From Tautonia sociabilis (GTDB taxonomy: Bacteria > Planctomycetota > Planctomycetia > Isosphaerales > Isosphaeraceae): a stretch of DNA of 64,000 nucleotides. Numbering within the stretch: the stretch's first letter is position 1; every line of letters begins with the position of its first letter. This document shows positions 898 to 29,095 of the stretch, in pieces. The notes below the pieces were generated by a model. It searched no databases, was not told the origin of the DNA, and saw only the letters and a list, made by a program, of their open reading frames with translations. A program made the translations under genes and the position numbers. The stretch spans positions 1 to 64,000 of the forward strand of contig NZ_RYZH01000027.1 in assembly GCF_003977685.1 (NCBI RefSeq), read 5' to 3'.

Positions 898-1794
898 TCA
901 GCGGGGCGCCGGCTCGAACGGTTCCATGTGGATCGACGCCCCGGTCACGGCGGGGACCGCGCGTCGGATGGCGGACTTGACCTTCCCGCTGATCACGTGC
1001 GCCTCGTGCAGGGAGATCGCGGGGTCGGCCTGGACGTGCAGGTCGACGAAGTACTCCATGCCGAACTTCCGCACGCGCAGCTTCTCGGTCGCGAGCACGC
1101 CCTCGACCTCCCGCGACGCCTGCTCGATCCGGTCCAGGATCGGCCCGTCCGGCATCCGGTCGAGCAGGTCCTGAGCCGCCGGGCGGAGCAGGCGCAGGCC
1201 GTTGGCGGCGATGATGGCCGAGGCGACCAGCGCCGCCCAGTCGTCGGCGGACTCCCAGCCCGGACCGCCCCAGATCGCGAGCGCAATGCCGACGAACGCC
1301 GCGGCCGAGGTGAGCGCGTCGCTGCGGTGATGCCAGGCATCCGCCTTGACCGCCGTGCTCCCCGTCTCGTCGCCCACCGCGAAGACCCGGCGGAACAAGA
1401 CCTCCTTCACCAGCACGACCCCCGCGACGACGGCCAGGGTGAACGGGGCGGGGACTTGGTGCGGCGTGAGGATCTCTCGGACGGCGACGACGGCGATGCT
1501 CAGCGCCGCGCCGAGTAGCATCAGCGCGACGACCGCCGCGGCGAGCGGCTCGGCCTTGCCGTGCCCGTAGGGGTACGCCTCGTCGGCCGGCCGGGCGGCC
1601 CGACGCAGGCCGCCCCAGACGATGAGCGAGGAGAAGATGTCGGTCGACGATTCGACCGCGTCGGCGACGAGCGCGTACGAGTTGCCGACGATCCCCGCGA
1701 GCAGCTTCGCGACGACCAGGCCGGCGTTCACCAGAAGGCCTACCTGCGCCGCGCGGATTCCACTGACGATGCTGCCATTCATGCTTCGAACCAT
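898..1794 (-). CDS. Cation diffusion facilitator (CDF) family metal transporter
   Basis: CDF proteins export divalent metals such as Zn2+, Co2+, Cd2+ or Fe2+ from the cytoplasm by metal/proton antiport. This 298-residue protein has the family layout: a TM2 site in DAVESSTD, a TM5 site in WHHRSDAL (HxxxD), six membrane segments, and a cytoplasmic C-terminal domain with the VDLHVQADP strand. ATG 1794 is chosen because GAGGAAA lies just upstream. A GTG at 1833 that overlaps the stop of the preceding gene (GTGA) is the alternative and would add 13 residues. As the last gene of a leftward efflux operon it would move metal to the periplasm for the RND pump. The exact metal cannot be read from the sequence. 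Confidence 0.9.
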   Translation of the reverse strand: MVRSMNGSIVSGIRAAQVGLLVNAGLVVAKLLAGIVGNSYALVADAVESSTDIFSSLIVWGGLRRAARPADEAYPYGHGKAEPLAAAVVALMLLGAALSIAVVAVREILTPHQVPAPFTLAVVAGVVLVKEVLFRRVFAVGDETGSTAVKADAWHHRSDALTSAAAFVGIALAIWGGPGWESADDWAALVASAIIAANGLRLLRPAAQDLLDRMPDGPILDRIEQASREVEGVLATEKLRVRKFGMEYFVDLHVQADPAISLHEAHVISGKVKSAIRRAVPAVTGASIHMEPFEPAPR

Positions 1795-1829
1795 ATTTTC
1801 CTCATCCGAGCTGTCGACGCTCGAGAGCC

Positions 1830-3209: not shown

Positions 3210-3214
3210 GTCCC

Positions 3215-6200
3215 TCAGGTGTGTGCTGCTACCGGTTCGTGCCAGGCAAGCTCCCCGCGACTCGCGGCGGGCTCGCGCGCCGCCGGTCGGCCGAAGCGGA
3301 GGTAGAGTGCCGGGAGCACGATCATGTTGAGCGCCGTCGAGGAGAGGAGGCCGAAGAGGATGACGATCGCCATCGGCGTCTGGATCTCGCTGCCGGGCTT
3401 CCCGCCGCCGAGCGCCAACGGCACGAGCGCCAGCCCGGCGCAGAGCGCGGTCATGAGGATCGGGGCGAGCCGCTCCATCGCCCCCCGGTAGACCGCCTCG
3501 CCGAGGTCCGTCACCCCGTCGAAGAGCTGCAGGTGGCGGATGTGGGAGACGAGCATGATGCCGTTCCGCGTGGCGATGCCGAAGAGCGTGATGAAGCCGA
3601 CGAGCGAGGCAATCGAGACCACGCCGCCCGAGAGGTAGAGCCCGAGGACGCCGCCGATGAGCGCAAACGGCAGGTTCGCCATCACCAGCAGCGCATCGCG
3701 GGCCGAGCCGAACGACAGGTTCAGCAGGAAGGCGATGCCCAGGACGACCACGGCGCCCAGGACGGCCAGCAGCCGCGTCGTCTCCGCGGCGCTCTCGAAC
3801 TGGCCGCCGTACTCGATGTAGTAGCCCTCGTACTGCCCGCGGCCGAATGGCACCGCGGCCGCGACCCTCGCGCGGATGTCCTCGACGACGCCGCCGAGAT
3901 CGCGGCCGGAGACGTTGGCCATCACCACGATCTTCCGCTGCACGTTCTCCCGGCTGATCTGGTTCGGCCCCGTGCTCCGCTCGATCCGCGCCAGCGCCTT
4001 GAGCGGCACCTTCGCCCCGCCCGGCGTGTCCACCGGGAGGTTCTGGATGGCCTCGGGGGTGATCTCCCTCGGGTCGCCGACCCGGACCACGAGGTCGAAC
4101 GCGTTCTGCCCCTCGAGGACCTGCGAGACCGCCTCGCCCCGGAACGCCGTCTCGACCGTCGACGCCACCTCCGCGACCGTCAGCCCGTGCCGGGCGATCG
4201 CCTCCCGATCGAAGCGGACCTTCAGGACCGGGATGTCCACCTGCTGCTCGACCGAGAGGTCGACCACCCCGGGGACGGCCGAGGCCTGCTCCCGCACCGC
4301 CTCGGCAAGCGTCCGGAGCTTGTACAGGTCGTCCCCGAAGATCTTCAGCGCGATGTTCGCCCTGGTGCCCGAGAGCATGTGGTCGATCCGGTGCGAGATG
4401 GGCTGCCCGATCGTGATGTTCATCCCCGGGACGAGCGAGAAGTCCTCGCGGAGCGCCGCGAGGAACGCCCCCTTGTCCCGCCCTTCGGCCAGCCGGAAGG
4501 AGACGTCGAGCTCGGCCGCCTCGACCCCCTGGGCGTGCTCGTCGAGCTCCGCCCGGCCGGTCCGCCTCGCCACCCCCGTCACCTCGGGGCGGGAGAGGAG
4601 CACCCGCTCGACCACCCGCCCCAGCTCGTCCGACTGCGCAAGCGAGGTCCCGGGGAGCGTCACGGCGCTGATCGTGAGCGATCCCTCGTTGAACTCCGGC
4701 AGGAACGATTGCCCGACGCGCGGCAGGTAGAGCAGCGCCCCGAGCAGGAGCAGCGCCGCCGGGGCGTAGACGAGGCCCGGGTGCCTGAGCGCCCGGGCGA
4801 GGACCGGCGAGTACAGCCGCTTGCAGGCGGAGACGATGCGGGGTTCGTGCTCGACCAGGACCGCCCGGCTCTCCGGCAGGAGGAGGGAGCAGAGGGCCGG
4901 GGTGAGCGTCAGCGCCACGACCAGCGACGCGAAGAGCGAGACGATGTAGGCCAGGCCGAGCGGCTGCAGGAGCCGACCCTCGACGCCGCCCAGGAAGAAC
5001 AGCGGCAGGAACACGAGCAGGATGATGAAGGTCGCGAACACCACCGAGGCGCGCACCTCCAGGCTCGCCTGATACACGACCACCAGCGGGTGGCGCCGCC
5101 GATCCTCCGGCAGGCGGGCGTTCTCGCGCAGCCTGCGGAAGACGTTCTCGACGTCGATGATTGCATCGTCGACGAGCTCGCCGATGGCGATCGCCATCCC
5201 GCCGAGGGTCATCGTGTTGATCGTCGCGCCGAGGGCCTTCAGGACCAGCACGGCGGAGACGAGCGACAGCGGGATCGCCAGCAGCGTGATGAAGCTCGCC
5301 CGCAGGTTCGCCAAGAACAGCATCACGATGACGACCACGAGGATGCCGCCGTCCCGGAGCGCATGCTCGACGTTCCGGATCGCCGTCTCGATGAACTCCG
5401 CCTGGCGGAAGATGTCCCGGTTGATCGCCATCCCCTCGGGGAGCGATCGCTCAATCTCGTCGAGCGTGCGATCGAGGGCCCGCGTGAGCTCGAGCGTATT
5501 GGCCCCCGGCTGCTTCTGGATCCCAAGGATCACCGCCGGCTCGCCCTGGGCCGAGCCCTCGCCCCGCTTGATCGCCTCCCCGATCTGCACCACGCCCAGC
5601 TGCCCGACCAGGATGGGCACGCCGTCGCGGACGGCGACGACCGTCTGGGCGATGTCCGCCGGCGTGCGCACTCGGCCGAGGCCCTGGATGAGGAGCTCCT
5701 GCCCGCCCTGGACCAGGAACCCGGCCGAGGCGTTCTGGTTGGTCCCGGCAAGCTGCCTGGCCACCTCGGCGACCGAGAGCCGGTAGGCCTGGAGCCGCGC
5801 GGGGGAGAGCACCACCTGGTACTGCTTCTCGCCGCCGCCGATGGGGGTCACCTGGGAGACGCCGGGCACGGACAGGAGCCGCCGACGGACCACGGTGCTC
5901 GCGACGGTGCGGAGCTCGATGCCGCTGTGCCGGTCCGAGGTGAGCGCGAGGAAGAGGATCTCCCCCATGATGGACGAGATCGGCGCGAGGATCGGCTTCT
6001 CGACCTCCGGCGGCAGCCCGCCGGCCACCAGGCTCAGCTTCTCCGTCACGACCTGCCGCGCGGTGTAGATGTCCGTGCCCCAGTCGAACTCGACCCAGAC
6101 TACGGAGATGCCGACGGCCGTCGAGGAGCGGACGCGGCGCACGTTCGCCGCGCCGTTGAGCGCCGCCTCGATCGGGAAGGTGACGAGGGTCTCGACCTCG

Positions 6201-6376
6201 ACCGGGGCCATGCCGTGGGCCTCGGTGATGACCGTCACGGTCGGCGCGGTGAGATCCGGGAAGACGTCCACCGGCATCCTTGAGGCGACGTAGCCCCCGG
6301 CCGCGAGCAGCAGCACCGAGAGCACGATGACCAGGGCCCGGTTGGTGAGCGAAAGGCGGATGATGGCGTTCAGCAT
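3215..6376 (-). CDS. Heavy-metal efflux RND permease (CzcA/CusA family), cluster 1
   Basis: A 1053-residue inner-membrane pump of normal HME-RND length. It has two repeats of six membrane segments with large periplasmic porter loops. Landmarks are the N-terminal PVDVFPDLTAPTV run, and the TM4 proton-relay segment GELVDDAIIDVEN near residue 400, which differs from the DFG-type signature of the other three pumps in this window. A terminal repeat near GFITLFGIATRNGIML is also present. It pumps metal ions or periplasmic complexes across the outer membrane together with the adaptor (14 bp upstream) and the outer-membrane factor (5 bp downstream). The divergent TM4 motif suggests a different substrate or energetics from the other sets, but the metal cannot be assigned. 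Confidence 0.92.
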   Translation of the reverse strand: MLNAIIRLSLTNRALVIVLSVLLLAAGGYVASRMPVDVFPDLTAPTVTVITEAHGMAPVEVETLVTFPIEAALNGAANVRRVRSSTAVGISVVWVEFDWGTDIYTARQVVTEKLSLVAGGLPPEVEKPILAPISSIMGEILFLALTSDRHSGIELRTVASTVVRRRLLSVPGVSQVTPIGGGEKQYQVVLSPARLQAYRLSVAEVARQLAGTNQNASAGFLVQGGQELLIQGLGRVRTPADIAQTVVAVRDGVPILVGQLGVVQIGEAIKRGEGSAQGEPAVILGIQKQPGANTLELTRALDRTLDEIERSLPEGMAINRDIFRQAEFIETAIRNVEHALRDGGILVVVIVMLFLANLRASFITLLAIPLSLVSAVLVLKALGATINTMTLGGMAIAIGELVDDAIIDVENVFRRLRENARLPEDRRRHPLVVVYQASLEVRASVVFATFIILLVFLPLFFLGGVEGRLLQPLGLAYIVSLFASLVVALTLTPALCSLLLPESRAVLVEHEPRIVSACKRLYSPVLARALRHPGLVYAPAALLLLGALLYLPRVGQSFLPEFNEGSLTISAVTLPGTSLAQSDELGRVVERVLLSRPEVTGVARRTGRAELDEHAQGVEAAELDVSFRLAEGRDKGAFLAALREDFSLVPGMNITIGQPISHRIDHMLSGTRANIALKIFGDDLYKLRTLAEAVREQASAVPGVVDLSVEQQVDIPVLKVRFDREAIARHGLTVAEVASTVETAFRGEAVSQVLEGQNAFDLVVRVGDPREITPEAIQNLPVDTPGGAKVPLKALARIERSTGPNQISRENVQRKIVVMANVSGRDLGGVVEDIRARVAAAVPFGRGQYEGYYIEYGGQFESAAETTRLLAVLGAVVVLGIAFLLNLSFGSARDALLVMANLPFALIGGVLGLYLSGGVVSIASLVGFITLFGIATRNGIMLVSHIRHLQLFDGVTDLGEAVYRGAMERLAPILMTALCAGLALVPLALGGGKPGSEIQTPMAIVILFGLLSSTALNMIVLPALYLRFGRPAAREPAASRGELAWHEPVAAHT

Positions 6377-6390
6377 CGGGGCTCCCTCCG

Positions 6391-8112
6391 TCAGTGTGCG
6401 TGGCCGTGGGCGGGGATGACGGAGGAGACCGACGCGAGCCGGATCGCGTAGGCGCCCCTCGTGACGACGCGCTCCCCCGGTTCGATCCCGCGCCGCACCT
6501 CGACGAAGCCCGAGTCGCGGATGCCGAGCTCCAGGTCGCGCCTCTGGAAATGCTCCCCGTCGAGGAGCACGTAGGCGGTCGGGCGCCCGTCCTCGTCGAC
6601 GATCGCCGTTTCCGGCACGGCAACCGCCTCCTCCCGGCGCGAGGTCTGGATCGCCACCTCGGCGAACATGCCGACGCGGAGCACCCCCTCGCGGTTCTCC
6701 AATTCGTAGCGGACCGGGAGCGTGCGCGTCGCGACGTCGACGACCGAACCCACGTCGATCAACCGGCCACGACCATCTCCGAGGATGTCATAGAGTCGGT
6801 CCGGGTAGGCGGCGAGCGTCAGGCTCGCGCCTGGCGCCTGCTCGACCCGCTCCAGGTCGAACTCGGAGACCTTCGCCTCGACCCAGACGCGGCCGAGGTC
6901 GATGAGCGTGAAGAGCGTGTGCTCCGGGTCGACATACTCGCCCTGCGTCGCCGCCGCGGACGTCACCGTGCCGGCGATGGGCGCGCGGAGCGGGAGGAGG
7001 GAGGAGGGGAGCGGCTCGGCGGGGGCGGCCGCCCCCGCGCTCGCGCCCGGATCTCCGCCCCGAGAGGTCGTGCCCGCCAGCGGGGTCAGCCGGCTCTCCT
7101 CGTAGATCCGCTTCGCCTCGAGCCGGCCCTGGTACTCGGCCTCCGCCGTGCGGAGCGCACGCTCGGTCTCGTCGAACTGGCGCCGGGAGATTGCGTCGGA
7201 GGCGACGAGCGTCTTCTGCCGTTCGTACACGGCCCGCGTGTGGTCAAGCTCGATCTTCGCCTTCCGGATCTCGATTTCCGCCTCGCGGAGCTTCTCCCCC
7301 AGGTCCGACTGCAGCACCTGGACGATGGCGACCACCTGCCCGGGCTCGACTCGCTGGCCGACCCGCGGGAACGCCCCGCCCGGCGGCGGGAGCAGCCGGC
7401 CGGCGAGCGGCGGGGTGACGACCGCCTTCGCCCCGGCGGCGGGGGTGATCTCCCCGGGTACGATCAGCCGCTCGACCAGCAGCCGCTTCCCCGCGGGCTC
7501 CGTGATGAGTCCGATCTTCCACGCCTGCTCCTTGAGGAAGGTGATGGCGCCTTCGGGCTCCTCCTCCGCGTTTTCGGAGGCGGCCTTCAGCGCCGCGGCC
7601 GGGCTCGGGTAGACGGCGACCGGGACGCGGATCGTGCCGCTCGCCTGGGGGCCCTCCAGCACCAGGCTCAGCTCGCTGGTCCCCGCCTCCGGGAAGGCGA
7701 TGGTCGGCCCGTAGATGCCGGGGGTTTTGGGCCCCTCCTGGACGACCGTGACCGACTTCCCGCCGGGGCCCTTCGCCGTGGCGGTCAGCGTCCCGGCCCG
7801 GATCGGCATCCCGTCGGCGAGGACCGTGAGGTGGACGTTGAACTTCGCCCCCTGGCCCACGACGAGGTAGGGGTGCTCCATGAAGAGCTCCAGGCCGCCG
7901 GAGGCGAGGGTGACCGACTCGGTCGGCGCCTCCGCCTCCGCAAGTTGCGACCCTTCGTCGTGTCCCGCGGAGTCGTGGGGGTGGGCATGCTCGGCGGATT
8001 CGTGCGCGTGGTCGTGCTCGTGGCCGCAGCCGAGCGTGAGCATGAATGCGCCCAGGGCGGCGATGAGGGAGCCTCCTCGCCGGCCGAGCGGGATGAGTCG
8101 TCGGGATGTCAT
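6391..8112 (-). CDS. RND periplasmic adaptor (CzcB/CusB-like) with His-rich N-terminus
   Basis: A 573-residue membrane-fusion protein, longer than the usual 350-450. A lipobox (FMLTLGC) is followed by a His/Asp/Glu-rich stretch (HEHDHAHESAEHAHPHD) that should bind metals. Next comes an extra beta-rich region of about 100 residues (LASGGLELFMEHPYLVVGQG onward), then the HlyD-type barrel-lipoyl-hairpin core with a coiled coil around EKLREAEIEIRKAKIELDH. ATG 8112 is chosen because it starts the lipoprotein signal; the 26 extra codons to 8190 look non-coding. It links pump and outer-membrane factor and may hand metal to the pump. It sits 14 bp upstream of the RND gene. Confidence 0.88.
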   Translation of the reverse strand: MTSRRLIPLGRRGGSLIAALGAFMLTLGCGHEHDHAHESAEHAHPHDSAGHDEGSQLAEAEAPTESVTLASGGLELFMEHPYLVVGQGAKFNVHLTVLADGMPIRAGTLTATAKGPGGKSVTVVQEGPKTPGIYGPTIAFPEAGTSELSLVLEGPQASGTIRVPVAVYPSPAAALKAASENAEEEPEGAITFLKEQAWKIGLITEPAGKRLLVERLIVPGEITPAAGAKAVVTPPLAGRLLPPPGGAFPRVGQRVEPGQVVAIVQVLQSDLGEKLREAEIEIRKAKIELDHTRAVYERQKTLVASDAISRRQFDETERALRTAEAEYQGRLEAKRIYEESRLTPLAGTTSRGGDPGASAGAAAPAEPLPSSLLPLRAPIAGTVTSAAATQGEYVDPEHTLFTLIDLGRVWVEAKVSEFDLERVEQAPGASLTLAAYPDRLYDILGDGRGRLIDVGSVVDVATRTLPVRYELENREGVLRVGMFAEVAIQTSRREEAVAVPETAIVDEDGRPTAYVLLDGEHFQRRDLELGIRDSGFVEVRRGIEPGERVVTRGAYAIRLASVSSVIPAHGHAH

Positions 8113-8222
8113 GTCGTTCTCTTGCCTGAATTCTGCCGATGTGGGGGACCGCCAGCGACGCAGCGCCACCCCTGGGGCGGTGCCGGCCACTTAACGCCGA
8201 GGAGACGCGGCGCAGACGGACA

Positions 8223-8775: not shown

Positions 8776-8807
8776 CTAAGCCTAATGGCCATCGCTCTTA
8801 GCGTCAA
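8776..8807 (-). promoter_or_regulatory. Candidate promoter with dyad in the spacer
   Basis: On the minus strand TTGACG (8807-8802) and TAGGCT (8784-8779) are separated by 17 bp. A CTAAG...CTTAG dyad (8776-8801) fills the spacer, as in promoters whose regulator binds between -35 and -10. The -10 match is poor (three of six), so this is only a candidate. It would drive the efflux operon that ends at 898. Confidence 0.4.
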
Positions 8808-8931
8808 GTGTATGCGTCGAACCCCGCTCCCCGGTGCTTGAGTCGCTCGCCTGGCGACTGTTCTCTGAGCAAGCCTGGGGGCGGCGGAGCAAGGCATGAT
8901 GCCCCTGCCGCACCGCCGCATGGCAGGGGAT

Positions 8932-9219
8932 TCAGAGCTGCTCCTCGACGTCGCGCCGGCCGTGGAGCACGCGAACGATCTCGATCCCCCCGGCTGCCTC
9001 CCGGTAGAACACCACGAAGGACTCGATCGGGAAGCTTCGCAGGCCGGGTCCAAGTACGGGACGCTCCCGGCCCATCTCGGGATGCTCGGCCAGCGTCTGC
9101 AATGTGTCGTTCAGTTTGTCGAGCAGCCGGTCGGCCGCTTCCAGGTTATCTTCGGCGATGTACGCCCAGATCTCGATCAGGTCCCGCTCCGCCGCCGCGG
9201 AGCGAACAATTCTTCCCAT
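8932..9219 (-). CDS. parE: ParE/RelE-family toxin
   Basis: A 95-residue protein of the ParE/RelE fold. It starts with a basic strand and the helix AERDLIEIWAYIAEDN, followed by a second helix (AADRLLDKLNDTLQTLAEHPEMGR), then strands ending FVVFYREAAGGIEIVRVLHGRRD. The pattern AERDLxEIWxYI, HPxMGRxRP and VxxVLHxRRD is typical of ParE, a family known to poison DNA gyrase. The gene follows its antitoxin by six bases. The pair would stabilise the element that carries it. Confidence 0.9.
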   Translation of the reverse strand: MGRIVRSAAAERDLIEIWAYIAEDNLEAADRLLDKLNDTLQTLAEHPEMGRERPVLGPGLRSFPIESFVVFYREAAGGIEIVRVLHGRRDVEEQL

Positions 9220-9225
9220 CAGTCC

Positions 9226-9489
9226 TCATCGGCGTCGACCCGCGAGATGCTGCCTGCCCCTGGCCTTGATCGACTCGATGTCGAGCAGGTCGGATTCCCC
9301 TCGCTCCAGTTGCTCGAGGCCGAGGTTGATGTCGCCCTGGAGCTGCTTCAGCCGCAACTCGTGCAGCCGATCGCGCTCCTCGAGGAGCCTGAGCGCCTCG
9401 CGTACGACCTCGCTCGCGGTCAGGTACCTGCCCGACGCAACTTTCTCGCGGACGAACTCTTCAAGTTCGTTCGTTAGTGAAATGTTCAT
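9226..9489 (-). CDS. parD: ParD-family antitoxin
   Basis: An 87-residue ribbon-helix-helix protein. The N-terminal strand NISLTNELEEFVREKV is followed by GRYLTASEVVREALRLLEERD, the ParD/CopG DNA-binding signature, and a charged C-terminal tail that would wrap the ParE toxin. It precedes the toxin gene, the usual order for autoregulated ParDE. A perfect palindrome covers its start codon. The ATG at 9489 is the only start that keeps the first strand intact. Confidence 0.9.
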   Translation of the reverse strand: MNISLTNELEEFVREKVASGRYLTASEVVREALRLLEERDRLHELRLKQLQGDINLGLEQLERGESDLLDIESIKARGRQHLAGRRR

Positions 9490-10884: not shown

Positions 10885-10961
10885 AGCCCGGGAGCACGAC
10901 ATCGGGACAGACGCGACTCGCCCAACCATCTCTCCTCTTCTACCCGACCAAAAATAAACGG

Positions 10962-11055
10962 GCGTTGCCCTCCGGGCCCGGGCTGCTCCGGGCTGCGCTT
11001 GCGCTCCGGTCCCGCCTGCGGCGTGACTGCTGCGCACCCTGCACATCCCTAACGC
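10962..11055. repeat. Direct repeat copy A (94 bp)
   Basis: Runs from GCGTTGCCCTCCGGGCC to CATCCCTAACGC and recurs at 14,549-14,641 with only a few differences. Both copies open a hairpin-rich stretch that ends in a long stem-loop just upstream of a gene (11,560 and 14,942). The copy lies in the 10,885-11,559 gap, which holds no convincing gene. Confidence 0.85.
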
Positions 11056-11127: not shown

Positions 11128-11243
11128 CAATCCCGCTCCGCGGGAGTTGCCCGCCCCGTTGCCCCCGGTCGATTCCTGCTCCGCAGGACATCGACCTGCC
11201 ACGCCCCGCGCGGGCCTCGCTGATTCCCGCTCGCGCGGGAGAT
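11128..11243. repeat. Cluster of short hairpins with TCC/GGA inner pairs
   Basis: Three adjacent hairpins share one plan. At 11,128-11,149: CAA-TCCCGC-TCC-GCGGGA-G-TTG. At 11,167-11,196: GGTCGAT-TCCTGC-TCC-GCAGGA-C-ATCGACC. A weaker one lies near 11,222-11,243 (TCCCGC-TCGC-GCGGGA). In each, TCC pairs with GGA and one base (G or C) is unpaired before the closing outer arm. Outer arms differ in sequence but keep pairing. Their function is unknown. Confidence 0.6.
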
Positions 11244-11424
11244 GCTCTCGGCCCGCTCCCCGCCGCTGTCGACGGGCCCGGCCCGGGGCCCGCCGCCCGA
11301 CCCCCTCGACGCAGGCCGCGCGGCCGTCAAGGTCCGCTCCGCTCTCCACCTGGACGGCCGCCCGGCCTGCCCGCCCCATCCCCGCCGTCGGTCGCCCGGG
11401 CCCGCGCCGTCCCCGAGGTTTCTG

Positions 11425-11490
11425 GTTGTTGCCACCGGGGCGGAGCTGGACCCCGGGGGGTTCCATCAGCTCCGCCCCGGCGGCAACAAC
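11425..11490. other. Long stem-loop upstream of the DUF932 gene
   Basis: Two arms of about 25 bases, GTTGTTGCCACCGGGGCGG... and its complement ending ...CGGCAACAAC, pair with a single A-C mismatch around a loop of about 17 bases. It ends 70 bases before the chosen start at 11,560. A similar stem with the same mismatch type stands before the gene at 14,942. It could be an mRNA leader structure or a DNA site. Confidence 0.65.
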
Positions 11491-11559
11491 ATGCCGCCCG
11501 GCGGCCTATGACGAACCGGCGCCCCCGCGGACATGGGGCGCCCAACGAAGGCAACGACC

Positions 11560-12633
11560 ATGAAAGAAGGAAGAGACCTGAACGCACTGCTGGCGGAAGT
11601 CCTGCGGCAATCGGAGACCAAGCACGATTACCTCGCGCCGTCCCGCTGCCTGGCCGTCACGACGTCCGAGGCGGGGACGTCGCTTGAGCTTGCAACGACC
11701 CGAGACCTCGCCCCGCTGCCGCTCAAGGACACCGCCCACGGGCAGCTTGCCGAGCGGTTGGGCATCCCCAAGGTGTACTACGACCGGATGCGGGAGGAGG
11801 CGCCGACGCTGTTTGACGCAAACGTGAACCACTGGCTTGCCTCGAGCGAGGACCGGCGGTTGGTCCGCACCCTCGACGGCCGCGCCCGGGCCATCCTCTC
11901 GGACCGCTACCGGGTGCTCGACAACCTCGACCTGGCCAGCGTCGCCGTGCCGGTGCTCCAGGACCACGGCTTCGAACTCGTGAGCGCCGAGCTGACCGAG
12001 AAGAAGCTCTATCTCAAGGCGACCACGCCCAAGATTCAGGCCGAGGTGAGGCGAGGGGACGTGGTGCAGGCCGGGGTGGTCATCAGCAATTCCGAGGTCG
12101 GGCACGGCACGCTCAAAATCGAGCCGCTCCTGTTCTTCCTCGTCTGCACCAACGGCCTGGTGATGCCCGAGGCGGCGATGCGCCGCCAGCACGTCGGCCG
12201 CCACATCGGCGACCTGGAGGGCGGGGAGCGGTACTACCTCGACGAGACGCGGCAGGCCGATGACCTGGCCTTCTGGCTGAAGGTGCGCGACACGCTGGTC
12301 GGCACGCTCCGGGAGCCGGCCTTCCTCCGCCACCTGGAGACGCTGAAGGGCGCCACCGAGCAGCCGATTCAAGCCGACCCGTTCGAGGTGGTCGAGGTGA
12401 CCGCGCGGCGCTTCCGCCTCGCCGAGGCGGAGAAGAACGGCGTGTTGAGGCACCTGCTCGCCGGCCACAACGGCCGGGTCGAGCTGAACAAGTACGGCCT
12501 GATGCAGGCGGTGACACGGGCGAGCAAGGACGTCGACGACTACGACCGCGCCACGGAACTGGAGCAGCTCGGCGGGCAGATCATCGAATTGCCGCCGAGC
12601 CAGTGGAAGCTGATTGCCGAGGCGAGGGCCTAG
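11560..12633 (+). CDS. DUF932 (phage/plasmid-like) protein
   Basis: A 357-residue protein of the DUF932 type, a family common on plasmids and phages with no settled function. Recognisable blocks are LAERLGIPKVYYDRM near the N-terminus, ILSDRYRVLDNLDLA, the central GVVISNSEVGHGTLKIEP followed by CTNGLVMPEA, and a C-terminal helical part. ATG 11,560 is preferred to ATG 11,533 because GAAGG stands eight bases before it. A small protein gene follows (12,711), the same pairing seen at 29,742-31,169. A hairpin-rich leader precedes it. DUF932 proteins have been suggested to act in DNA transfer or protection, but nothing here proves a role. Confidence 0.85.
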   Translation: MKEGRDLNALLAEVLRQSETKHDYLAPSRCLAVTTSEAGTSLELATTRDLAPLPLKDTAHGQLAERLGIPKVYYDRMREEAPTLFDANVNHWLASSEDRRLVRTLDGRARAILSDRYRVLDNLDLASVAVPVLQDHGFELVSAELTEKKLYLKATTPKIQAEVRRGDVVQAGVVISNSEVGHGTLKIEPLLFFLVCTNGLVMPEAAMRRQHVGRHIGDLEGGERYYLDETRQADDLAFWLKVRDTLVGTLREPAFLRHLETLKGATEQPIQADPFEVVEVTARRFRLAEAEKNGVLRHLLAGHNGRVELNKYGLMQAVTRASKDVDDYDRATELEQLGGQIIELPPSQWKLIAEARA

Positions 12634-12710
12634 CCGACGAACGCCGACGACGCCGGCCGGCCACGCGCCGGCCGGCACTCCCGAATGAATCACCCAGTAG
12701 AGGAATGACC

Positions 12711-13022
12711 ATGACCCTGAGACTTGCAGGCGACAACGAAGAAGAGTTCAACGCGATTCGGCCCGACCGGCCGGCCAAGGTGTGCGGCCGCGGCGACATC
12801 CGCGCCCGAATCTGGGCCGACCCGACCCCGTGGGGCGACGTCGAATGGCGGGTGTCCTTCGCCCGCTTCAGCCCCGACCGCCCCGCCGTCATCTACACGC
12901 ACGCCTTCGAGCGCGACGAGCTCGCCGACCTCATCCAGGCGACCTTCGACGCCCGGCGGTGGATTGCCCGGGCCGAGCGGCGCATCCGGCGCTATCGGCG
13001 CGGGCCGCTTTCATGGTTCTGA
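12711..13022 (+). CDS. Small partner protein of the DUF932 gene
   Basis: A 103-residue protein with the blocks DIRARIWADPTPWGDVEWRV, a central aromatic strand (FARFSPDRPA) and ERDELADLIQATFDARRWI. The same order (IRAxIWA, then RDDLxxL, then WI) occurs in the 30,855 product, which also follows a DUF932 gene. This points to a duplicated two-gene module. Start 12,711 has AGAGG about seven bases upstream; ATG 12,705 is possible. No catalytic residues or membrane segments are visible. A small beta-alpha fold is likely. Confidence 0.72.
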   Translation: MTLRLAGDNEEEFNAIRPDRPAKVCGRGDIRARIWADPTPWGDVEWRVSFARFSPDRPAVIYTHAFERDELADLIQATFDARRWIARAERRIRRYRRGPLSWF

Positions 13023-13121
13023 ACTGATGATACAGGGGGCCGGGCGGCGGGCCCGGCCCCACCCCCGGACGGCGAGGCGGCGGGCGATGGAGATTGTCCC
13101 GTACGCTCGTCGTTTTTTCGC

Positions 13122-13284
13122 GCGGGCCGGGGTTCCCGATCGCGTGCGCGATCAGGAGACCCCGGCCCGCTCCCCGCCGCACCGCACGCCGTGCGGTGCT
13201 CCCCCTTGGCATTCCCCGGTACGTGCGTACCAGGGAGATGCCTCCCGCGGGATTCCCGACCGCTGCGCGGTCAGGACATCCCGC
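13122..13284. repeat. Array of nested hairpins with covarying stems
   Basis: Four hairpins stand in a row: 13,122-13,170 (12-bp perfect outer stem plus an inner stem), 13,179-13,199 (nine-bp stem, three-base loop), 13,208-13,242 and 13,247-13,284. Three share one plan: outer arm, TCC, inner arm, loop, inner arm, bulged A, GGA, bulged G or C, outer arm. The stem sequences differ completely. Paired changes on both sides suggest the structure is what is conserved. Further partial stems follow to about 13,400. The 13,023-13,543 gap contains no convincing gene. Confidence 0.7.
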
Positions 13285-14317: not shown

Positions 14318-14548
14318 TGGCGAGCGCCCAGTGCAAATCGCGCAGTATTCGCAGGGCCGGTCCTCTTACGGATTGAGAGTCGGCAGTCAGTCAGATGTGT
14401 CTACGGCCGAGAAACGGGGCCACCACGATCACGCGTGCCGATCATCCGCAAGGCCGCGACGGCCGGCGCATCGGCATCTGCCAGTGGACTGGGAGCGTGG
14501 GACAGGGTCGAAACGTCTTACGTCAAGAATCACTTTGAGACCATTCAG
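14318..14548. other. Intergenic stretch, nothing recognised
   Basis: Mixed-composition sequence between the membrane protein and repeat copy B. No convincing gene, promoter or strong hairpin was seen. Confidence 0.5.
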
Positions 14549-14641
14549 GCGTTGCCCTCCGGGCCGGGGTGCTCCGGGCTCCGCTTCCGCTCCGGTCCCG
14601 CCTGCGGCGTGACTGCTGCGCACCCTGCACATCCCTAACGC
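14549..14641. repeat. Direct repeat copy B (93 bp)
   Basis: Second copy of the 10,962-11,055 repeat, same orientation, differing by a few substitutions and one deletion in the GGGCC run. It opens the leader of the 14,942 gene; the following 200 bases are again hairpin-rich and non-coding. Confidence 0.85.
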
Positions 14642-15205: not shown

Positions 15206-15283
15206 CGCCTCACGCCGCGCCTCATGCGAGACAACCCGCCGGGCGGCGAGCAAGGCCGCCCGGCCATCATCGGACGGGAGACC

Positions 15284-15841
15284 ATGGCGGGGGAAACGGA
15301 GAAATACGACGGATTCAGCAACTACGAGACGTGGGCCGCCTGCGTGCTGCTGACCTACCTCGAGGAGTCGCTCACCTACTGGCTCGCGGAGGCCGAGGCG
15401 GTGCGCCGCGAGGTGCGAAGGGCCGGCGGGGACGGGCCCGAGGCGGAGTCCTGCCGGCGCCTGCTCGCCGAGCGGCTGCGGCGGATGGACCGGGCGGGGG
15501 GCCGGGGCGAAGCCCTCGGCGTGCGGTGGGAGGAGATTGCCCAGGAACTGCTCGTCGAGCCGCCGCCGGTGCGTCGCGAGCGCTTCCCGCTCGGCCGGCA
15601 GGTCATCACTCGCGAGGCGTTCGCCGTCCTGTCGCCGCTCGACGTCTGCGTCGCCATCGTGCTCCACAGCCGCGGGACCTGGGGCGAGCTTGATGAGGAC
15701 GATTGTGAGGGGAACGAGCGGTCGCTGCGCGAGGGCGGGCGCCTGTTCTCGGCCTACGACGCCAAGGACGGCACCCGCTTCTACGTCGTGACCGAGCATG
15801 ACCGCTCGGTCACCACCGTGCAACTGGCCGAGGAGTACTGA
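15284..15841 (+). CDS. Plasmid accessory protein, first of two tandem paralogues
   Basis: A 185-residue protein. The N-terminal half starts with a YDGFSNYETWAACVLLTYL helix. The C-terminal half has LSPLDVCVAIVLHSRGTWGEL, then NERSLREGGRLFSAYDAKDG and a closing strand pair (TRFYVVTEHDRSVTTVQL). The second half resembles the short plasmid-related domain found on proteobacterial mobile elements (WGE..., RLxSxY, ITExDRSxTTxLL pattern). That comparison is from memory of the family. ATG 15,284 follows GGGAG. The next gene is a diverged copy. Confidence 0.72.
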   Translation: MAGETEKYDGFSNYETWAACVLLTYLEESLTYWLAEAEAVRREVRRAGGDGPEAESCRRLLAERLRRMDRAGGRGEALGVRWEEIAQELLVEPPPVRRERFPLGRQVITREAFAVLSPLDVCVAIVLHSRGTWGELDEDDCEGNERSLREGGRLFSAYDAKDGTRFYVVTEHDRSVTTVQLAEEY

Positions 15842-15893
15842 GCTTACGAACCTGCCGGGCCCCTGGCCCGGCCTTCACCATCCGGGGAGGACC

Positions 15894-16472
15894 ATGGGAC
15901 AGCAGAGATGTCACCACGAGCAACATCCGGCGACGGGAGACGAAGCGAAGGGCGGCGACGGGCTCGGAGACTATGAGCGGTGGGCGGCGGTCGTGCTGAT
16001 GGGCTACTACGACTCGCTCCGCGACCTGCTCGCCGAGGCATGCCGGTTACAGGCGGAGGGCGACGGCTTCCAGAAGAGCTGGGGGGCGGCGCTCGCGAGA
16101 CGGCTCGGGGCCGGACACCTGGCGGTGCCCTGCGGCGGCGCGTTGGTGGACTGGGACGAGGTCATGCGGGCGCTGAAGGCGGCCGGGCTGCCGAGGCGCC
16201 GTGCCCTGCTGCCGCTTGGCCGCCACGACGTGACACAGGCCGCCCTCGAGGACCTCACGCCGCTCGACGTCTGCGTCGCCGCCCTGCGCCACGGCCGCGG
16301 CGTGTGGGGCGAACTCGACGAGGACTTCCGTGAGGCAAACGAGCGGGGGCTGAGGGAGGGCGAACGGCTCGTCTCCGCCCACCGTGCCCGGGACGGCACG
16401 CAGTTCTTTGTCGTCACGGACCCCGACCGCGCGGTCACGAGCGTGATCGTGCCCGCAGAACTCGGCGACTGA
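15894..16472 (+). CDS. Plasmid accessory protein, second tandem paralogue
   Basis: A 192-residue protein parallel to the preceding gene: LGDYERWAAVVLMGYYDSL matches its N-terminal helix, and LTPLDVCVAALRHGRGVWGE, NERGLREGERLVSAHRARDG and FFVVTDPDRAVTSV match its C-terminal domain. A Cys/His-containing N-terminal stretch (MGQQRCHHEQH) is unique to this copy. ATG 15,894 follows GGGAGGACC. The middle regions differ strongly, so duplication is old. Both copies sit between a zinc-ribbon gene and a methyltransferase-like gene on one strand. Confidence 0.72.
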   Translation: MGQQRCHHEQHPATGDEAKGGDGLGDYERWAAVVLMGYYDSLRDLLAEACRLQAEGDGFQKSWGAALARRLGAGHLAVPCGGALVDWDEVMRALKAAGLPRRRALLPLGRHDVTQAALEDLTPLDVCVAALRHGRGVWGELDEDFREANERGLREGERLVSAHRARDGTQFFVVTDPDRAVTSVIVPAELGD

Positions 16473-17620: not shown

Positions 17621-18001
17621 ATGGGGCTGCCGTTCATGGACTGGCTGGAGAAGCGGACGCGGGACGCGATCCTGCGGGGCGCGGCCGAGGCGGGCAAGGT
17701 CCTCACGGAGGGGGCGGAGGTGGTGGTCGAGCGGACCGAGGTGGTCGTCACGCTCGAGCGGGTGACGGAGTACGACTCATCGCCGGGCGCGGATCGCCCC
17801 GGGCTCGTGGAGGCATCCGACCCGCCGGGCGCGAAGCCGGCGCTGCCGCCTTCGGGCCAGGGACCGGGCACCGGCAAGCGTGAGGCAGGGCCGAAGGCGG
17901 GGCCGCCGGCGCGGGGCCGGCAGCCGGAGCGGGGACGTGCCCCCGCGACGACCTCCAAGACCGAGGCGATGTTCGATGCCAGCCCGGGCTCGAAGCCGTG
18001 A
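17621..18001 (+). CDS. Small hypothetical protein at head of transfer-like operon
   Basis: A 126-residue protein. Its first 50 residues form a helix (MDWLEKRTRDAILRGAAEAG) and a strand pair (EVVVERTEVVVTLERVTEY). The rest is Pro/Gly/Arg-rich and probably disordered. GGAGG stands eight bases before ATG 17,621. The end overlaps the next gene by about 26 bases. Position suggests an accessory factor for the winged-helix proteins and ATPase downstream; no family recognised. Confidence 0.6.
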   Translation: MGLPFMDWLEKRTRDAILRGAAEAGKVLTEGAEVVVERTEVVVTLERVTEYDSSPGADRPGLVEASDPPGAKPALPPSGQGPGTGKREAGPKAGPPARGRQPERGRAPATTSKTEAMFDASPGSKP

Positions 18002-18623
18002 GCCGGTGCTGACCGGCCGCGACGAGGCGCTGCTGGAGTGCCTCACCGGCCGGTTCCGGCTGATCACCCCCGCGCTGCTGGCGCGGCTCTGGGGCTGCTC
18101 CGAGGCCTGCGTCCGCCGCAGGCTCCGGGCCCTCGACGCGGCGGGCCTGGTCCTCACCGCCCGGGTGCAGGCCCGCCCGCTGCTCGACCTCAGCGGGCCG
18201 CTGGTCCGCTGGGAGCCCGGCGGGCCGGAGCCGGACTTCGGCCGGGTGAGCTACCGGCTCAAGGCGCGCTGGCGCGAGCCGCCCGTCACGACCACCGTGT
18301 ACCTTGCCGGCCGCCGGGCCGTGCACCTCTTCGGCGGCTCCGGCGGACGCCTCGACTACCCGCTCCAGGCCACCCACGACCTCCACGTCGCCGCCATCTA
18401 CGCCCGGCTCGCCGAGGCGGACCCCGGCCAACTCGCCCGCTGGCGCGGCGAGGAGACGCTCCGCCGGGGCCGCAAGCGCGGCAAGATCCCCGACGCCGTC
18501 CTGGTCGACGGGCGTGGGCGGCCCACTCGGGCGATCGAGTTCGGCGGCAGCTACGGGCCGGCTCGGGTGCGGGTCTTCCACCGGGTCTGCGCCAACGCGC
18601 GACTGGCCTACGAACTTTGGTGA
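17976..18623 (+). CDS. Replication-relaxation-like winged-helix protein (first)
   Basis: A 215-residue protein with an N-terminal winged helix (LTGRFRLITPALLARLWG, then VRRRLRALDAAGLV). The C-terminal part contains KIPDAVLVDGRGRPTRAIEF followed by a Tyr/Arg-rich helix. A winged helix plus a (P)DAxxxxxxG...IE segment is the layout of the replication-relaxation family seen on actinobacterial and planctomycete plasmids; its biochemical role is not settled. The Asp and Glu in IPDAVLV and AIEFGG could mark a degenerate nuclease fold. ATG 17,976 overlaps the preceding gene. Confidence 0.6.
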   Translation: MPARARSREPVLTGRDEALLECLTGRFRLITPALLARLWGCSEACVRRRLRALDAAGLVLTARVQARPLLDLSGPLVRWEPGGPEPDFGRVSYRLKARWREPPVTTTVYLAGRRAVHLFGGSGGRLDYPLQATHDLHVAAIYARLAEADPGQLARWRGEETLRRGRKRGKIPDAVLVDGRGRPTRAIEFGGSYGPARVRVFHRVCANARLAYELW

Positions 18624-18643
18624 GGGGAGAGAGGAGAGGGGCG

Positions 18644-19387
18644 ATGTCGAAGGCCGCCGCACGCACCATCAAGCTCACCGATCGCGACCGGGCGATCCTC
18701 GATCACGTCCATCGCTACCGGCTGACCACGATCGAGGTGCTCCGCCGCCTGTTCTGGGAGCCGGGCTGCACGCCCAACGCCGTATCGCAGGTCCTCGGGC
18801 GGCTCGCCGCCTTCCTCCACGAGGCGCCGCTGATCGGCCCGCAGAAGATCTACCTGCTCACGGCCGCGGCGGCGCGGGAGTACGGCGAGGATGAGGACTT
18901 CGCCCGGCCGCCCGGCCCGACGAGCCTGGCCCACCACCTGGCGATGCTCGAGTACTGCTGCCTGGCCGACGAGCGGCGCGAGCACATCACCGCCCGGGAG
19001 ATCCGCGAGGGCTTCCCCGGCTTCGACGGGCGGGGGATCGCCCGGAACCGCTACTTCCACACCGAGGGCGAACGCCCGTGGCTCGGCTGGCTGGAGGTCG
19101 ACTGCGGCAGCAACGCCGAGGCCCGGGTGAGGAAGTGCCACAAGCAGTTCGCCAAGCGTTATAATGCCGAGGGCCTGAAGTTCCGCGAGCTGGCCGACGC
19201 CGGCCGGTTCGGGATCGTCCTGATCACCACCTCCGACGGCAAGCGTCGGGCGCTGGAGCGGGCGCTCCGCAAGCTCGACCCGTTCCCCCTGGAGGTGCGG
19301 ACCTCGGAGACGCTCCGACTGCTCCTGGGCCGCGGCGACGCGGCGGCCCGAGCTTCACCCGACGACGGGAGCGACGACGCCGGATGA
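18644..19387 (+). CDS. Replication-relaxation-like winged-helix protein (second)
   Basis: A 247-residue protein. It starts with a winged helix (KLTDRDRAILDHVHRYRLTT, then EVLRRLFWEPGC) and continues with a His-rich helical middle (SLAHHLAMLEYCCLADERRE). A C-terminal domain has LGWLEVDCGSN and RFGIVLITTSDGKRRALERA. The arrangement parallels the preceding protein, suggesting a pair of relatives. It overlaps the ATPase gene by four bases (ATGA at 19,384). GGAGAGGGG precedes the ATG. Likely DNA-binding in transfer or replication control. Confidence 0.62.
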   Translation: MSKAAARTIKLTDRDRAILDHVHRYRLTTIEVLRRLFWEPGCTPNAVSQVLGRLAAFLHEAPLIGPQKIYLLTAAAAREYGEDEDFARPPGPTSLAHHLAMLEYCCLADERREHITAREIREGFPGFDGRGIARNRYFHTEGERPWLGWLEVDCGSNAEARVRKCHKQFAKRYNAEGLKFRELADAGRFGIVLITTSDGKRRALERALRKLDPFPLEVRTSETLRLLLGRGDAAARASPDDGSDDAG

Positions 19388-22320
19388 GGGATTTCTACCG
19401 CGACCGCGATTCGCTCCGCGTGGAGCTGCTGCCCGAGGGCTGGGACCGCGAGGGGATGGCGTTCTCCTACCGGGCGCCCGGGACCCGCGCCGGCGAGACC
19501 CGAAACCCGTTCACACCCTACATCATCGCCTCGCTCGCGCTGGCGGCCTTCGCCGGGGCGCTCGCGACGCGACTCTTCTGCTACGTCGTGCCGCTGGGGA
19601 CGATGGCCTTCTCCTGGCAAGTGATCGCGCTCTTCGTGGCGATCTCCCTGGTCGATGGCATGCCCAGCTACTTCGGCGACGATCCGCCCGAGGTCTGGAT
19701 CACCCGGTTCCTTCGGGCGCCCCTGGTCTGGGCGACGATCGTGCTCCTGGCCCAGCCCCCGTGGGTGCTGCTCGTCGTGGTGCTCCTCGTCACGCTGCTG
19801 CTGGCCGACGCGCTGGCCGGGAACTACCTGGCCTGGCTCCTGGCCGACGCCCGGCTCGACTCCGACACCCGGGAGCTCATCCGGCGGCGGTGGAAGGGCC
19901 GCTTCGCGCGCGAGTCCTGGCTCACGGCGGTGCTGGGGCTCTTCGGCCACAACCGGCGGCCGCGGGTCCTCGACCATTACCTGGTCGGGCTCTTGCTCCT
20001 GGCGGCGGCGTTCGGGGTGGGGCTCCTGGCGTTGGCCTGCATGCCGGCCTACACGACGGGGATGGTCGTCGTCCTCGCCCTGCTGGCCTACCTCCCGCTC
20101 CAGGCGCTCGCCCTGCCGCACCTGCTCGGGCTCAAGCGCGTGCCGGCGCGGCTCCAGGCGGGGGTGGTGGCCCGCGCCCTGTCCAACTGGCTGAGCTACA
20201 ACCCCCGCGACCGCTGGACGCCGGGGCTGCACCTGAGCCCCTACGGGGCGGCATGGCTGCGGCTGAGCCTCTTCGCCGCCGCCCTGCTGGTGGCCGGGGC
20301 GTCGCTCAACGTCGCCGCCTGCTTCTTCCCCGTGCTCATGCTCGGCCCGGAGGGGACCTCGCCCTGGCTCCGGGTGGGGGCGGAGCGGCGGGCGGCGTGG
20401 GGCGGCGGGCCGTCGCCGGACCCCGAGGTGCGGCTCTCGCCCCGCCAGCGGCTCTACTACGAGCAGCTCGAGGGCGAGGAGCGGCGCTCGGCGTACCTGC
20501 TGCGGGCGGCGCGCGCGCAGGCCGCCGCGCGCCGGGCGCCTGTCGGCCGGCGCGACGCCGGCGCCCTCACGACGCCCGAGTCCTGGATCCCGCCCAACTA
20601 CGCCGGCGCCTGGAGGGGCCGGCCGCTGTTCCTCTGGACCTTCATCCTGGCCCTGGTGCTGGGCATGGCCGTACCGCCGCTCCTGCTGTTTGCCGCCTGC
20701 TGGTCGGCCTTCGGGCACGAGCTGGCGCTCCTGGAGCTGCGGCTCACCCACCCCGACTTCCGGCAGCACCGGCGCGAGGAGGACGGCGCCCCGGAGGAGT
20801 CGCCCGCGTGGTACGACCCCGAGTGGCAGGGCTACATCGACGCGCTGCACAACTCGCCCAACCCCCTGGAGCGCGAGCACCTGTTCCTCGGCTTCGCCCA
20901 GGACTTCGACACCGACGACGAGTCCCCGGTGCTGATGCACCGGGACATGCTCCGCGAGCACGTGCACGTGACCGGGGACAGCGGCTCGGGCAAGAGCAGC
21001 CGCGGCATCGCCGCGATGGCCGCCCAGCTCTGCCGCTTCGCCCGCGAGCGGGGGGACTGCTCCCTGCTCGTCATCGACCTGAAGGGCGACGACGCGCTCT
21101 TCCACGGCATCCGTCACGAGGCGCGCGGGCTGCCCTTCAAGTGGTACCGCGAGCAGATCGGCTGCACGACCTTCGGCTTCAACCCGCTCATGCAGTCCCA
21201 CATGGAGTATTACAACCCGGAGCAGAAGGGCCGCGCCGTCATGGACGCCTTCGGCCTGCGCTACCAGGACGGCGGGGCGGACCGCTACTTCGCCGACATC
21301 CAGGAGGAGGTCCTCTCCCGGCTGTTCCGGCACCACCCCGAGGTCCGCTCGCTCGCCGATCTGCACCGCCTGCTCCAGGATCGCGGGATCCGCGAACGCC
21401 TCTTCCCGAACACGCCGCAGACCCACTGGGACAACTCCTACCACGTGCGCTCCCAGCTCGGCGCCTTCGCCAACTCGGCGCCGCTGAACGACACGAGCGG
21501 CGACCCGGACCGGTGCATCGACCTGCCCTCCCTGTTCGCCCGGCCGCAGGTGGTCTACTTCTACGTGCCGGCGCTCATGGGCGGCGGGGCCAACCAGCAG
21601 GCGGCGAAGTTCGCGCTGTACGCGCTGCTGACCTCGGCGCTGTTCATCCCGAAGTCGAACCGGCACCAGGTCTACTGCATCATCGACGAGTTCCAGGAGA
21701 TCATCGGCGCCAACCTCGGCGTGATCCTCAAGCAGGCCCGCAGCTTCGACGTCGGCATGGTGCTCGCGAACCAGCTGCCCTCGGACCTCAATCGCGGCGG
21801 CGTGCGGCTGCACGACGTGCTCACGGCGACGACCGCGCTGCGCTGGTCCTTCCGCGCCAGCGACCTGGCCCAGCAACGCGAGCTGCAAGAAGCCTCCGGG
21901 GAGTACATCGAGTACCTCAGGACGGTGAATACCCAGGTGACCGTGACGCACTCGTCCGGGAGGAAGGGCGGCAGCGAGAGCGTCACCAGGTCGGTCGGCA
22001 CGAGCCGCGCGGAGGTCTTCCGCCCGGCGTTCAGCCGGAACCGGATCCTCTGGGCGAATTTCGTCGACGACCTGTCCATCGCCCACTTCGCGCGGGGCAA
22101 CGGCTACACGCAGTTCTTCCGCCCGTTCCCACTGCGCACGATGTTCCACATCAGCCGGGAGCTCTACGAGAAGCGCTCCCGCGAGCCGTGGCCGCTCCTG
22201 CCCTGGCCGCCGGGGCGGCGAGACGGCGCGGCCCCCGGCCCCGTGCCCGGGCCGGCCGATCGGCCGCTGCCCCCGCCCGACGGCGGGCAGCCGGGCGGTG
22301 CGACCGGCGAACGACCCTGA
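19384..22320 (+). CDS. VirD4/TraG/TraD-like coupling ATPase with N-terminal membrane domain
   Basis: A 978-residue protein. The N-terminal half has about eight membrane segments, for example around residues 45-90, 115-150 and 200-240, more than a typical coupling protein. The C-terminal half is a conjugation-type ATPase: Walker A VTGDSGSGKSSRG near residue 530, Walker B VYCIIDEFQEIIG near 762, and a later GMVLANQLPSDLNRG segment. These ATPases feed DNA or protein to a type IV secretion channel as membrane hexamers. No relaxase or channel gene is seen nearby, so this may be part of an incomplete or unusual transfer system. Confidence 0.85.
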   Translation: MRDFYRDRDSLRVELLPEGWDREGMAFSYRAPGTRAGETRNPFTPYIIASLALAAFAGALATRLFCYVVPLGTMAFSWQVIALFVAISLVDGMPSYFGDDPPEVWITRFLRAPLVWATIVLLAQPPWVLLVVVLLVTLLLADALAGNYLAWLLADARLDSDTRELIRRRWKGRFARESWLTAVLGLFGHNRRPRVLDHYLVGLLLLAAAFGVGLLALACMPAYTTGMVVVLALLAYLPLQALALPHLLGLKRVPARLQAGVVARALSNWLSYNPRDRWTPGLHLSPYGAAWLRLSLFAAALLVAGASLNVAACFFPVLMLGPEGTSPWLRVGAERRAAWGGGPSPDPEVRLSPRQRLYYEQLEGEERRSAYLLRAARAQAAARRAPVGRRDAGALTTPESWIPPNYAGAWRGRPLFLWTFILALVLGMAVPPLLLFAACWSAFGHELALLELRLTHPDFRQHRREEDGAPEESPAWYDPEWQGYIDALHNSPNPLEREHLFLGFAQDFDTDDESPVLMHRDMLREHVHVTGDSGSGKSSRGIAAMAAQLCRFARERGDCSLLVIDLKGDDALFHGIRHEARGLPFKWYREQIGCTTFGFNPLMQSHMEYYNPEQKGRAVMDAFGLRYQDGGADRYFADIQEEVLSRLFRHHPEVRSLADLHRLLQDRGIRERLFPNTPQTHWDNSYHVRSQLGAFANSAPLNDTSGDPDRCIDLPSLFARPQVVYFYVPALMGGGANQQAAKFALYALLTSALFIPKSNRHQVYCIIDEFQEIIGANLGVILKQARSFDVGMVLANQLPSDLNRGGVRLHDVLTATTALRWSFRASDLAQQRELQEASGEYIEYLRTVNTQVTVTHSSGRKGGSESVTRSVGTSRAEVFRPAFSRNRILWANFVDDLSIAHFARGNGYTQFFRPFPLRTMFHISRELYEKRSREPWPLLPWPPGRRDGAAPGPVPGPADRPLPPPDGGQPGGATGERP

Positions 22321-22351
22321 TCACCCGCGACACCTTCGGAGGCGACGAGCG

Positions 22352-27839: not shown

Positions 27840-27903
27840 GCTCTGCCAACTGGACGGTCAAGGGACGCGTGAGACAGAACGAAGTATCGCCCCGCTCGCG
27901 CAT

Positions 27904-28305: not shown

Positions 28306-28310
28306 GACAG

Positions 28311-29022: not shown

Positions 29023-29095
29023 AGACCTCCTGCTTGGTTTCGCCGCGTCGCATGGCCTGCTCCCAGGTCCAGCACGCGGAGGTTCATCATCGGCC

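Follow-up and report, generated by a model that had tools for sequence, protein, structure and literature searches.

A strand-specific hairpin array in a family of planctomycete integrative elements

Introduction

In a 64,000-nt stretch of the 6.8-Mb genome of Tautonia sociabilis (NZ_RYZH01000027.1, positions 1-64,000; here called the window), two intergenic clusters of hairpins lie one on each side of a DUF932 gene. An earlier note on this DNA counted at least six hairpins of one fixed plan at 11,128-11,243 and 13,122-13,284, with stems that differ yet stay paired, and took the compensated changes as a mark of selection on structure. The locus raises the questions of what such hairpins belong to, which DNA strand carries the shape, and whether the shape works as RNA or as single-stranded DNA (ssDNA).

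Results

Six hairpins of one plan

The six hairpins were seen where the earlier note had placed them. Read 5' to 3', each consists of an outer arm, TCC, an inner arm, a loop, the other inner arm, GGA, one unpaired G or C, and the other outer arm. We refer to this plan as class F1, and all six hairpins were assigned to the minus strand. The first cluster comprises a short version with a 3-bp outer arm (11128-11149), a hairpin with a 7-bp outer arm, a 6-bp inner helix, and a single bulged base (11167-11196), and one set within an outer GCGGGCC/GGCCCGC arm with internal loops, in which the core is kept and the outer arm is interrupted (11210-11256). The second comprises a hairpin with a perfect 12-bp outer arm (13122-13170), as the note had said, and two more at 13208-13242 and 13247-13284. 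These last two have counterparts in locus L065, a near-identical hairpin at 9181-9214 and another at 9218-9255, which form a consecutive pair in the same order with different stem letters. A T tail is absent from all six.

The flanks GCGCGGGCC...GGCCCGCTCCCCGCCGC of the 11210-11256 hairpin are common to 13120-13180. As a dispersed repeat, GGCCCGCTCCCCGCCGC was rejected: with one mismatch allowed, it had eight matches in its own genome, and other genomes gave about as many as the reversed control. Three other hairpins, none assigned to a strand, were noted here: between F1 hairpins, a perfect 9-bp hairpin that departs from the TCC/GGA plan (13179-13199), a 24-bp hairpin, 96% complementary, upstream of the DUF932 gene (11425-11490), and a long imperfect hairpin found by direct inspection and likely part of the array described below (11311-11370). 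The last represents a further hairpin type, whose inner part (AAGGTCCGCT..GCTCTCCACCT, also written AAGGTCCGCT..CTCTCCACCT) is kept in locus L067 near 8140, where the outer arms differ.

Pairing and loops are conserved

Alignment of the six hairpins (A1) revealed two-sided changes in 12 of 17 pairs and one-sided changes in none. None of 500 column shuffles reached this number of two-sided changes, and the signal was lost when the pairing partner was slid. The stems vary freely but remain paired; therefore, their shape is under selection, as the earlier note had argued. A strict descriptor with an outer arm of at least 5 bp matched three times in the window, compared with a mean of 0.05 and a maximum of 1 in 20 order-2 Markov sequences.

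Two covariance models were built, R1 from the window's aligned F1 hairpins and R2 from thirteen hairpins of a second class, F2. The window hairpins scored 24 to 55 bits under R1 (in order of position, 30.5, 34.6, 24.2, 55.3, 50.3, and 50.8 bits). Control DNA (20 stretches, each of 20 kb) gave no matches, the best scores being 17 bits for R1 and 18 bits for R2. The loci of the mobile elements described below contained 13 F1 and 14 F2 hairpins; shuffles gave 0.1 and 0.0, respectively, and 451 kb of control DNA yielded neither class. For a third class, F3, the counts were 29 in element loci, 2 in controls, and 2.9 in shuffles. Hairpins with a GTNCA loop numbered 53 in 430 kb of element loci and 3 in 400 kb of control DNA. 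Arrays and controls could not be told apart by the density of perfect hairpins per kilobase alone. What selection preserves is pairing and loops, not stem sequence.

Run against planctomycetes, R1 gave the outcome predicted by the note, namely, relatives in five other genomes, with covarying pairs. In T. sociabilis, strong matches were confined to three window hairpins, and weaker ones were found in a second element on contig C77; the next match, at 28 bits, lies inside coding sequence. Matches in the other genomes of the bacterial family (45 including this one) fell in coding sequence only. Intergenic matches occurred in five genomes of a class-level sample of 398 (G322, G282, G389, G362, and G122). 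The match in G290 looks like coding sequence, and the R1 matches in C46 (L007), L013, L014, and L061 and the R2 match in G510 (L174) lie in coding sequence or unrelated contexts and were set aside as chance. Absence elsewhere is weak evidence, because the large surveys scored few candidates per genome (16 to 18, versus about 150 in smaller ones). Many loci are from metagenome assemblies, and some share contigs (L064/L106, L065/L070, L066/L087, L092/L164, L088/L165, L107/L167, and L091/L169).

F1 hairpins are one section of a larger array

The full array spans 300 to 800 nt and consists of several hairpin classes, with parAB on one side and a gene for a kinase or the coupling protein on the other. 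F2 hairpins have an outer arm, an inner arm of 7 bp, a TNGG loop, and one bulged G 3' of the inner arm; F3 hairpins have a stem around TGNAC. Within an array, F1, F2, and F3 hairpins lie on one strand. Two loops, C-GTNCA-G and CCNA, are repeated along the array, and symmetric GNA/GNA internal loops are present as well. The outer arms vary freely (alignments A5, A7, and A11), and the loops and the order of hairpins are conserved across genera.

Of the 14 pairs aligned in the thirteen F2 hairpins, 13 showed two-sided change, with a covariation score of 0.79 versus 0.17 in shuffles; two of the thirteen, from L074 and L088, lack a perfect outer arm. An alignment of 22 array cores covers about 170 nt; it contains invariant loop bases and shows two-sided change at 30 of the 36 pairs. 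Since some cores are related copies (L163 twice, L169 twice, and L064 and L099), these are not 22 independent events. Alignment A7 holds one entry per contig, duplicated arrays excepted. Such duplications within an element were seen in L163 (5804 and 15456) and L169 (7550 and 12480), and in L067 the array is duplicated as a tandem 264-bp unit (8788-9316).

F1 hairpins adjoin the core in L064, L066, L067, L068, L088, L096, L099, L162, L172, and L173. Thus, hairpins of the window type form a single section of a longer array. The window itself holds F1 and related hairpins, with no F2/F3 core detected by R2. The "family of hairpins" of the earlier note is real as class F1 but amounts to only one class of a larger ordered array, which is strand specific and a standard noncoding part of a family of planctomycete integrated elements.

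The carriers are integrative elements

R2 matched 14 of the 398 genomes at E<=1e-3, including contig C77 of T. sociabilis, where the second element (L162) has ParA, a coupling protein, and a complete hairpin array. All 14 genomes carry the element. In 12 of them, the array shares a contig with the Rep/ParAB/coupling-protein module; G087 and G191 have the coupling protein on a different contig. Nine R2 genomes are among the 26 of 298 genomes with the coupling protein (hypergeometric, about 7e-11). All twelve stretches around new R2 matches contained element genes, compared with almost none in control stretches. A TraD/TrwB-like coupling protein and neighboring families occur on the same stretch as the hairpins in the window and in the loci of four of the five R1 genomes; in the fifth, G389, this protein lies on the hairpins' contig (as L087). 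A scan for this protein yielded 51 loci, mostly planctomycete.

The conserved gene order is Rep (-), ParA (+), ParB (+), the hairpin array, a PknB-like kinase, F7, a second PknB-like kinase, F9, F0, the coupling protein, F0, an F2 protein (a family distinct from the F2 hairpins), an MT-A70 methylase, and a serine or tyrosine recombinase. The recombinase adjoins a tRNA or tmRNA gene in several elements. A recombinase in this position together with a coupling protein, the marks of an integrative element, was found in relatives of the window's element, and the carrier family is one of integrative elements at tRNA or tmRNA genes. The earlier note had pointed to planctomycete plasmids and accessory blocks. 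The link with mobile DNA held, but the hosts are integrated elements rather than known plasmids, and the coupling protein had no match among the 72,556 plasmids of PLSDB.

In its predicted fold, a low-confidence model (mean pLDDT of 58), the Rep protein matches RctB domains 2-3 (E=1.8e-7) and, second, RepE; it thus looks RctB/RepE-like, of the theta rather than the rolling-circle type. No relaxase was detected among the element proteins searched, and neither a PDB sequence search nor the predicted F2-protein fold gave anything significant. A mating channel was likewise not found among the proteins searched, nor was an oriT identified in the element, most of whose genes have no Pfam match. Two conserved proteins were noted in passing. 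One (A9; L092:5153-6193 and relatives), flanked by two PknB-like kinase genes, has invariant cysteines (CPRA..., C..GCP) and by eye looks similar to a Cas4-type nuclease. The other (A10; L092:12177-12833 and relatives) is the F2 protein family, which has an E-x-T...K-like motif at the C-terminal end and might be a PD-(D/E)XK nuclease; the fold search was not significant.

In the window, the element genes follow the plus strand and an order close to that of L108. They comprise two overlapping paralogous genes of family F4 (15224-16472), an F0 gene (17880-18623; present in 25 of 25 element loci compared), an F2 protein gene (18608-19387), the TraD/TrwB-type coupling protein (19384-22320; homologue PF10412/PF12696, Walker A GDSGSGKSS), and an adjoining F6 gene (22298-23803). 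The coupling protein is present, and no recombinase, ParAB, or Rep homologue was seen in this element. The DUF932 gene between the F1 clusters (11572-12633, plus strand; PF06067, PHROG 1362) was considered as a partner of the hairpins and dropped, because homologues are rare in the bacterial family (2 of 45 genomes, including this one) and the viral scan found none. Downstream of it is a small open reading frame with weak similarity to one in L068 (12711-13022, plus strand). A 95-bp GC-rich direct repeat beside the first cluster (10961-11055) is 96% identical to a second copy at 14548-14641, and these are the only full-length copies in the genome.

Further features of the window include a heavy-metal efflux cluster (898-8190; cation efflux, OEP, RND pump, and CusB/HlyD-type fusion protein), a ParE/ParD toxin-antitoxin pair (8932-9489), and, beside the element genes, a block of lower GC content that holds an Eco57I-like methylase and an HTH regulator (24092-28437). 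Inverted repeats of 154 bp, 93% identical (237-388 and 29093-29244), bracket a 29-kb stretch that holds the efflux and mobile-element genes. Another inverted repeat, of 208 bp and 87% identity, lies at 44216-44420 and 49172-49379.

The minus strand is probably the active one

On the plus strand, the one read in the earlier note, stems with one mismatch contain C-A 11 times and G-T 3 times. The "bulged A" that the note saw in some hairpins is one side of such a C-A mismatch; on the minus strand, it becomes a G-T or G-U wobble, and the helix is continuous. Over the core and F1, the minus strand has 26 wobble pairs against 11 A-C mismatches (p=0.02), and F1 column 12-30 reads C-G in 9 sequences and U-G in 7. 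On this strand, the gain for the three strong hairpins of the window is 4 kcal/mol as RNA and about 2 as DNA. Of 18 arrays, 15 have the lower RNA folding energy on the minus strand. Because the C·A mismatch reads there as a G·U or G·T wobble, the minus strand is probably the active, informative one. A count by hand over 13 elements placed the structured strand opposite to parAB every time, a polarity that holds even though the coupling-protein module is inverted in L065.

RNA or single-stranded DNA

Minus-strand wobbles, the C-G/U-G column, and the lower folding energy all speak for a structured RNA. The frequency of G-U pairs divides the array. In core stems it was 1.3% (10 of 742, a figure that includes F2 members selected in part for Watson-Crick pairing), compared with 8.8% (19 of 215) in the acceptor and T stems of tRNAs from the same loci (p=5.5e-7). 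RNA is therefore disfavored for the core. In F1 stems, the rate was near normal at 6.7% (16 of 238). No sigma-70-like -35/-10 promoter was found in the arrays of the window, L067, and L068, though planctomycete promoters may differ. The structured strand of L068 carries one terminator-like hairpin that has a T run, as an RNA would have it. A search of Rfam 15 returned no family at the gathering threshold in the window, and in three element loci nothing but tRNA at E<=0.5; tmRNA and tRNA were the sole known families found. Given the rare core G-U pairs, the F1 rate, the missing promoter, and the single terminator, ssDNA is favored only slightly over RNA.

Discussion

The array's selected shape probably either helps the element's ssDNA become established or acts as RNA. 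Our preferred reading, to which we assign a probability of about 0.42, is that the array is a strand-specific ssDNA structure similar to a single-strand origin (sso/ssi). We infer ssDNA as the working form as follows. The element would pass through a single-stranded stage, by conjugative transfer or by strand displacement after excision, during which the minus strand would fold into the array. Host or element proteins would recognize the folded shape and its repeated loops and, once bound, would start complementary-strand synthesis or early transcription in the rightward direction. The array would then serve as a single-strand origin or a single-strand promoter, and copies near DUF932 or ArdC-like genes would aid early establishment. 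In support of this reading, the R2 matches are bound to elements, the pairs covary, the polarity is fixed, and core G-U pairs are few; the array is also noncoding, intergenic, and duplicated in L163, L169, and L067. The reading is weakened by the missing relaxase and oriT, the RctB/RepE-like Rep, the size of the arrays, which exceeds that of a typical sso, the near-normal G-U rate of F1, and the lack of a consensus promoter in three arrays.

The sso of ICEBs1 and pBAA1 depends on its stem-loops, is active in a single orientation, and still functions when its sequence is altered but the structure is retained (PMC4595007). The array resembles these sites (ICEBs1 sso1, pBAA1, and the ssi of phiX174) in being intergenic and orientation specific with several stem-loops, in the precedence of structure over sequence, and in being carried by an integrating element (PMC4595007, PMC5714925). 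Its noncoding stem-loops of conserved structure keep one polarity to the replication/transfer module, as in an sso. The resemblance is good. The array differs in being longer, with several repeated hairpin classes and GTNCA/CCNA loops, and in lying, in planctomycetes, beside an RctB/RepE-like rep-parAB module with no relaxase found; it is a candidate sso. Structures of this kind are hard to find because their sequences change. For other ICEs, the authors of the ICEBs1 study call for sequence and predicted-structure analyses plus functional tests (PMC4595007). The Frpo single-stranded promoters need promoter elements on the folded strand (PMC11541004). Like Frpo and the ssi of plasmid leading regions, the array would be a folded single strand of a mobile element, in some cases near DUF932 or ArdC-like genes; it differs in having many hairpins and in the absence of -35/-10-like sites from the three arrays scanned.

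Only a little less likely, the array is a structured minus-strand RNA, oriented divergently to the kinase gene and antisense to the last part of parB. With its many identical GUNCA loops, such an RNA could bind proteins or serve as a sponge; alternatively, it could regulate partition or transfer genes. Besides the strand evidence above, the conserved loops, symmetric GNA/GNA internal loops, and fixed hairpin order resemble those of noncoding RNA families, and the large structured RNAs GOLLD, ROOL, and HEARO are likewise multi-hairpin, with conserved loops, and carried by mobile elements or phages. Against an RNA stand the scarcity of core G-U pairs, the lack of promoter-like sites in the three arrays scanned, a hairpin copy number that varies, and the absence of any Rfam 15 match in the window and three element loci (tRNA apart), which sets the array apart from GOLLD, ROOL, and HEARO.

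We consider it unlikely that the array acts as double-stranded DNA, in the form of cruciforms or palindromes bound by Rep, ParB, or a transfer protein or as recombination sites of the attC or REP kind. Perfect palindromes, few G-T pairs in the core, the adjacent rep-parAB genes, and duplicated units would fit, but a cruciform exposes both strands, whereas the loops and the single bulge are strand specific and the wobbles strand biased. Integron attC sites, which have conserved RYYYAAC/GTTRRRY ends, share with the array imperfect hairpins with extrahelical bases that are recognized by shape as ssDNA, and REP sequences of RAYT systems share short imperfect hairpins between genes. Both were rejected because conserved ends and dispersal are lacking: the R-box ends are not conserved, the outer arms vary freely, and there is not one hairpin per cassette; nor is the array dispersed in the genome, being confined, at limited search depth, to this element family. 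That the arrays are intrinsic terminators, chance GC-rich palindromes, or functionless mutational by-products is most improbable, for although GC-rich DNA folds readily and a few hairpins have T runs, the F1 hairpins of the window have no T tail, the F1, F2, and GTNCA-loop counts far exceed those in controls, and loops and order are kept across genera; a chance origin is already refuted.

We found no earlier description of the array in the open-access literature. Tentatively, it may represent an undescribed kind of locus, a shape-coded array of pentaloop hairpins that would be read by an element-encoded protein and would serve as the transfer or establishment origin, or as a large regulatory RNA, of undescribed integrative elements. 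Whether RNA or DNA, the array is outside every Rfam family. Thanks to its many compensated changes, its fold, loops, and strand are open to direct testing. Little is known of gene transfer in this phylum, and here a structure model was by itself enough to bring an entire family of mobile elements to light.
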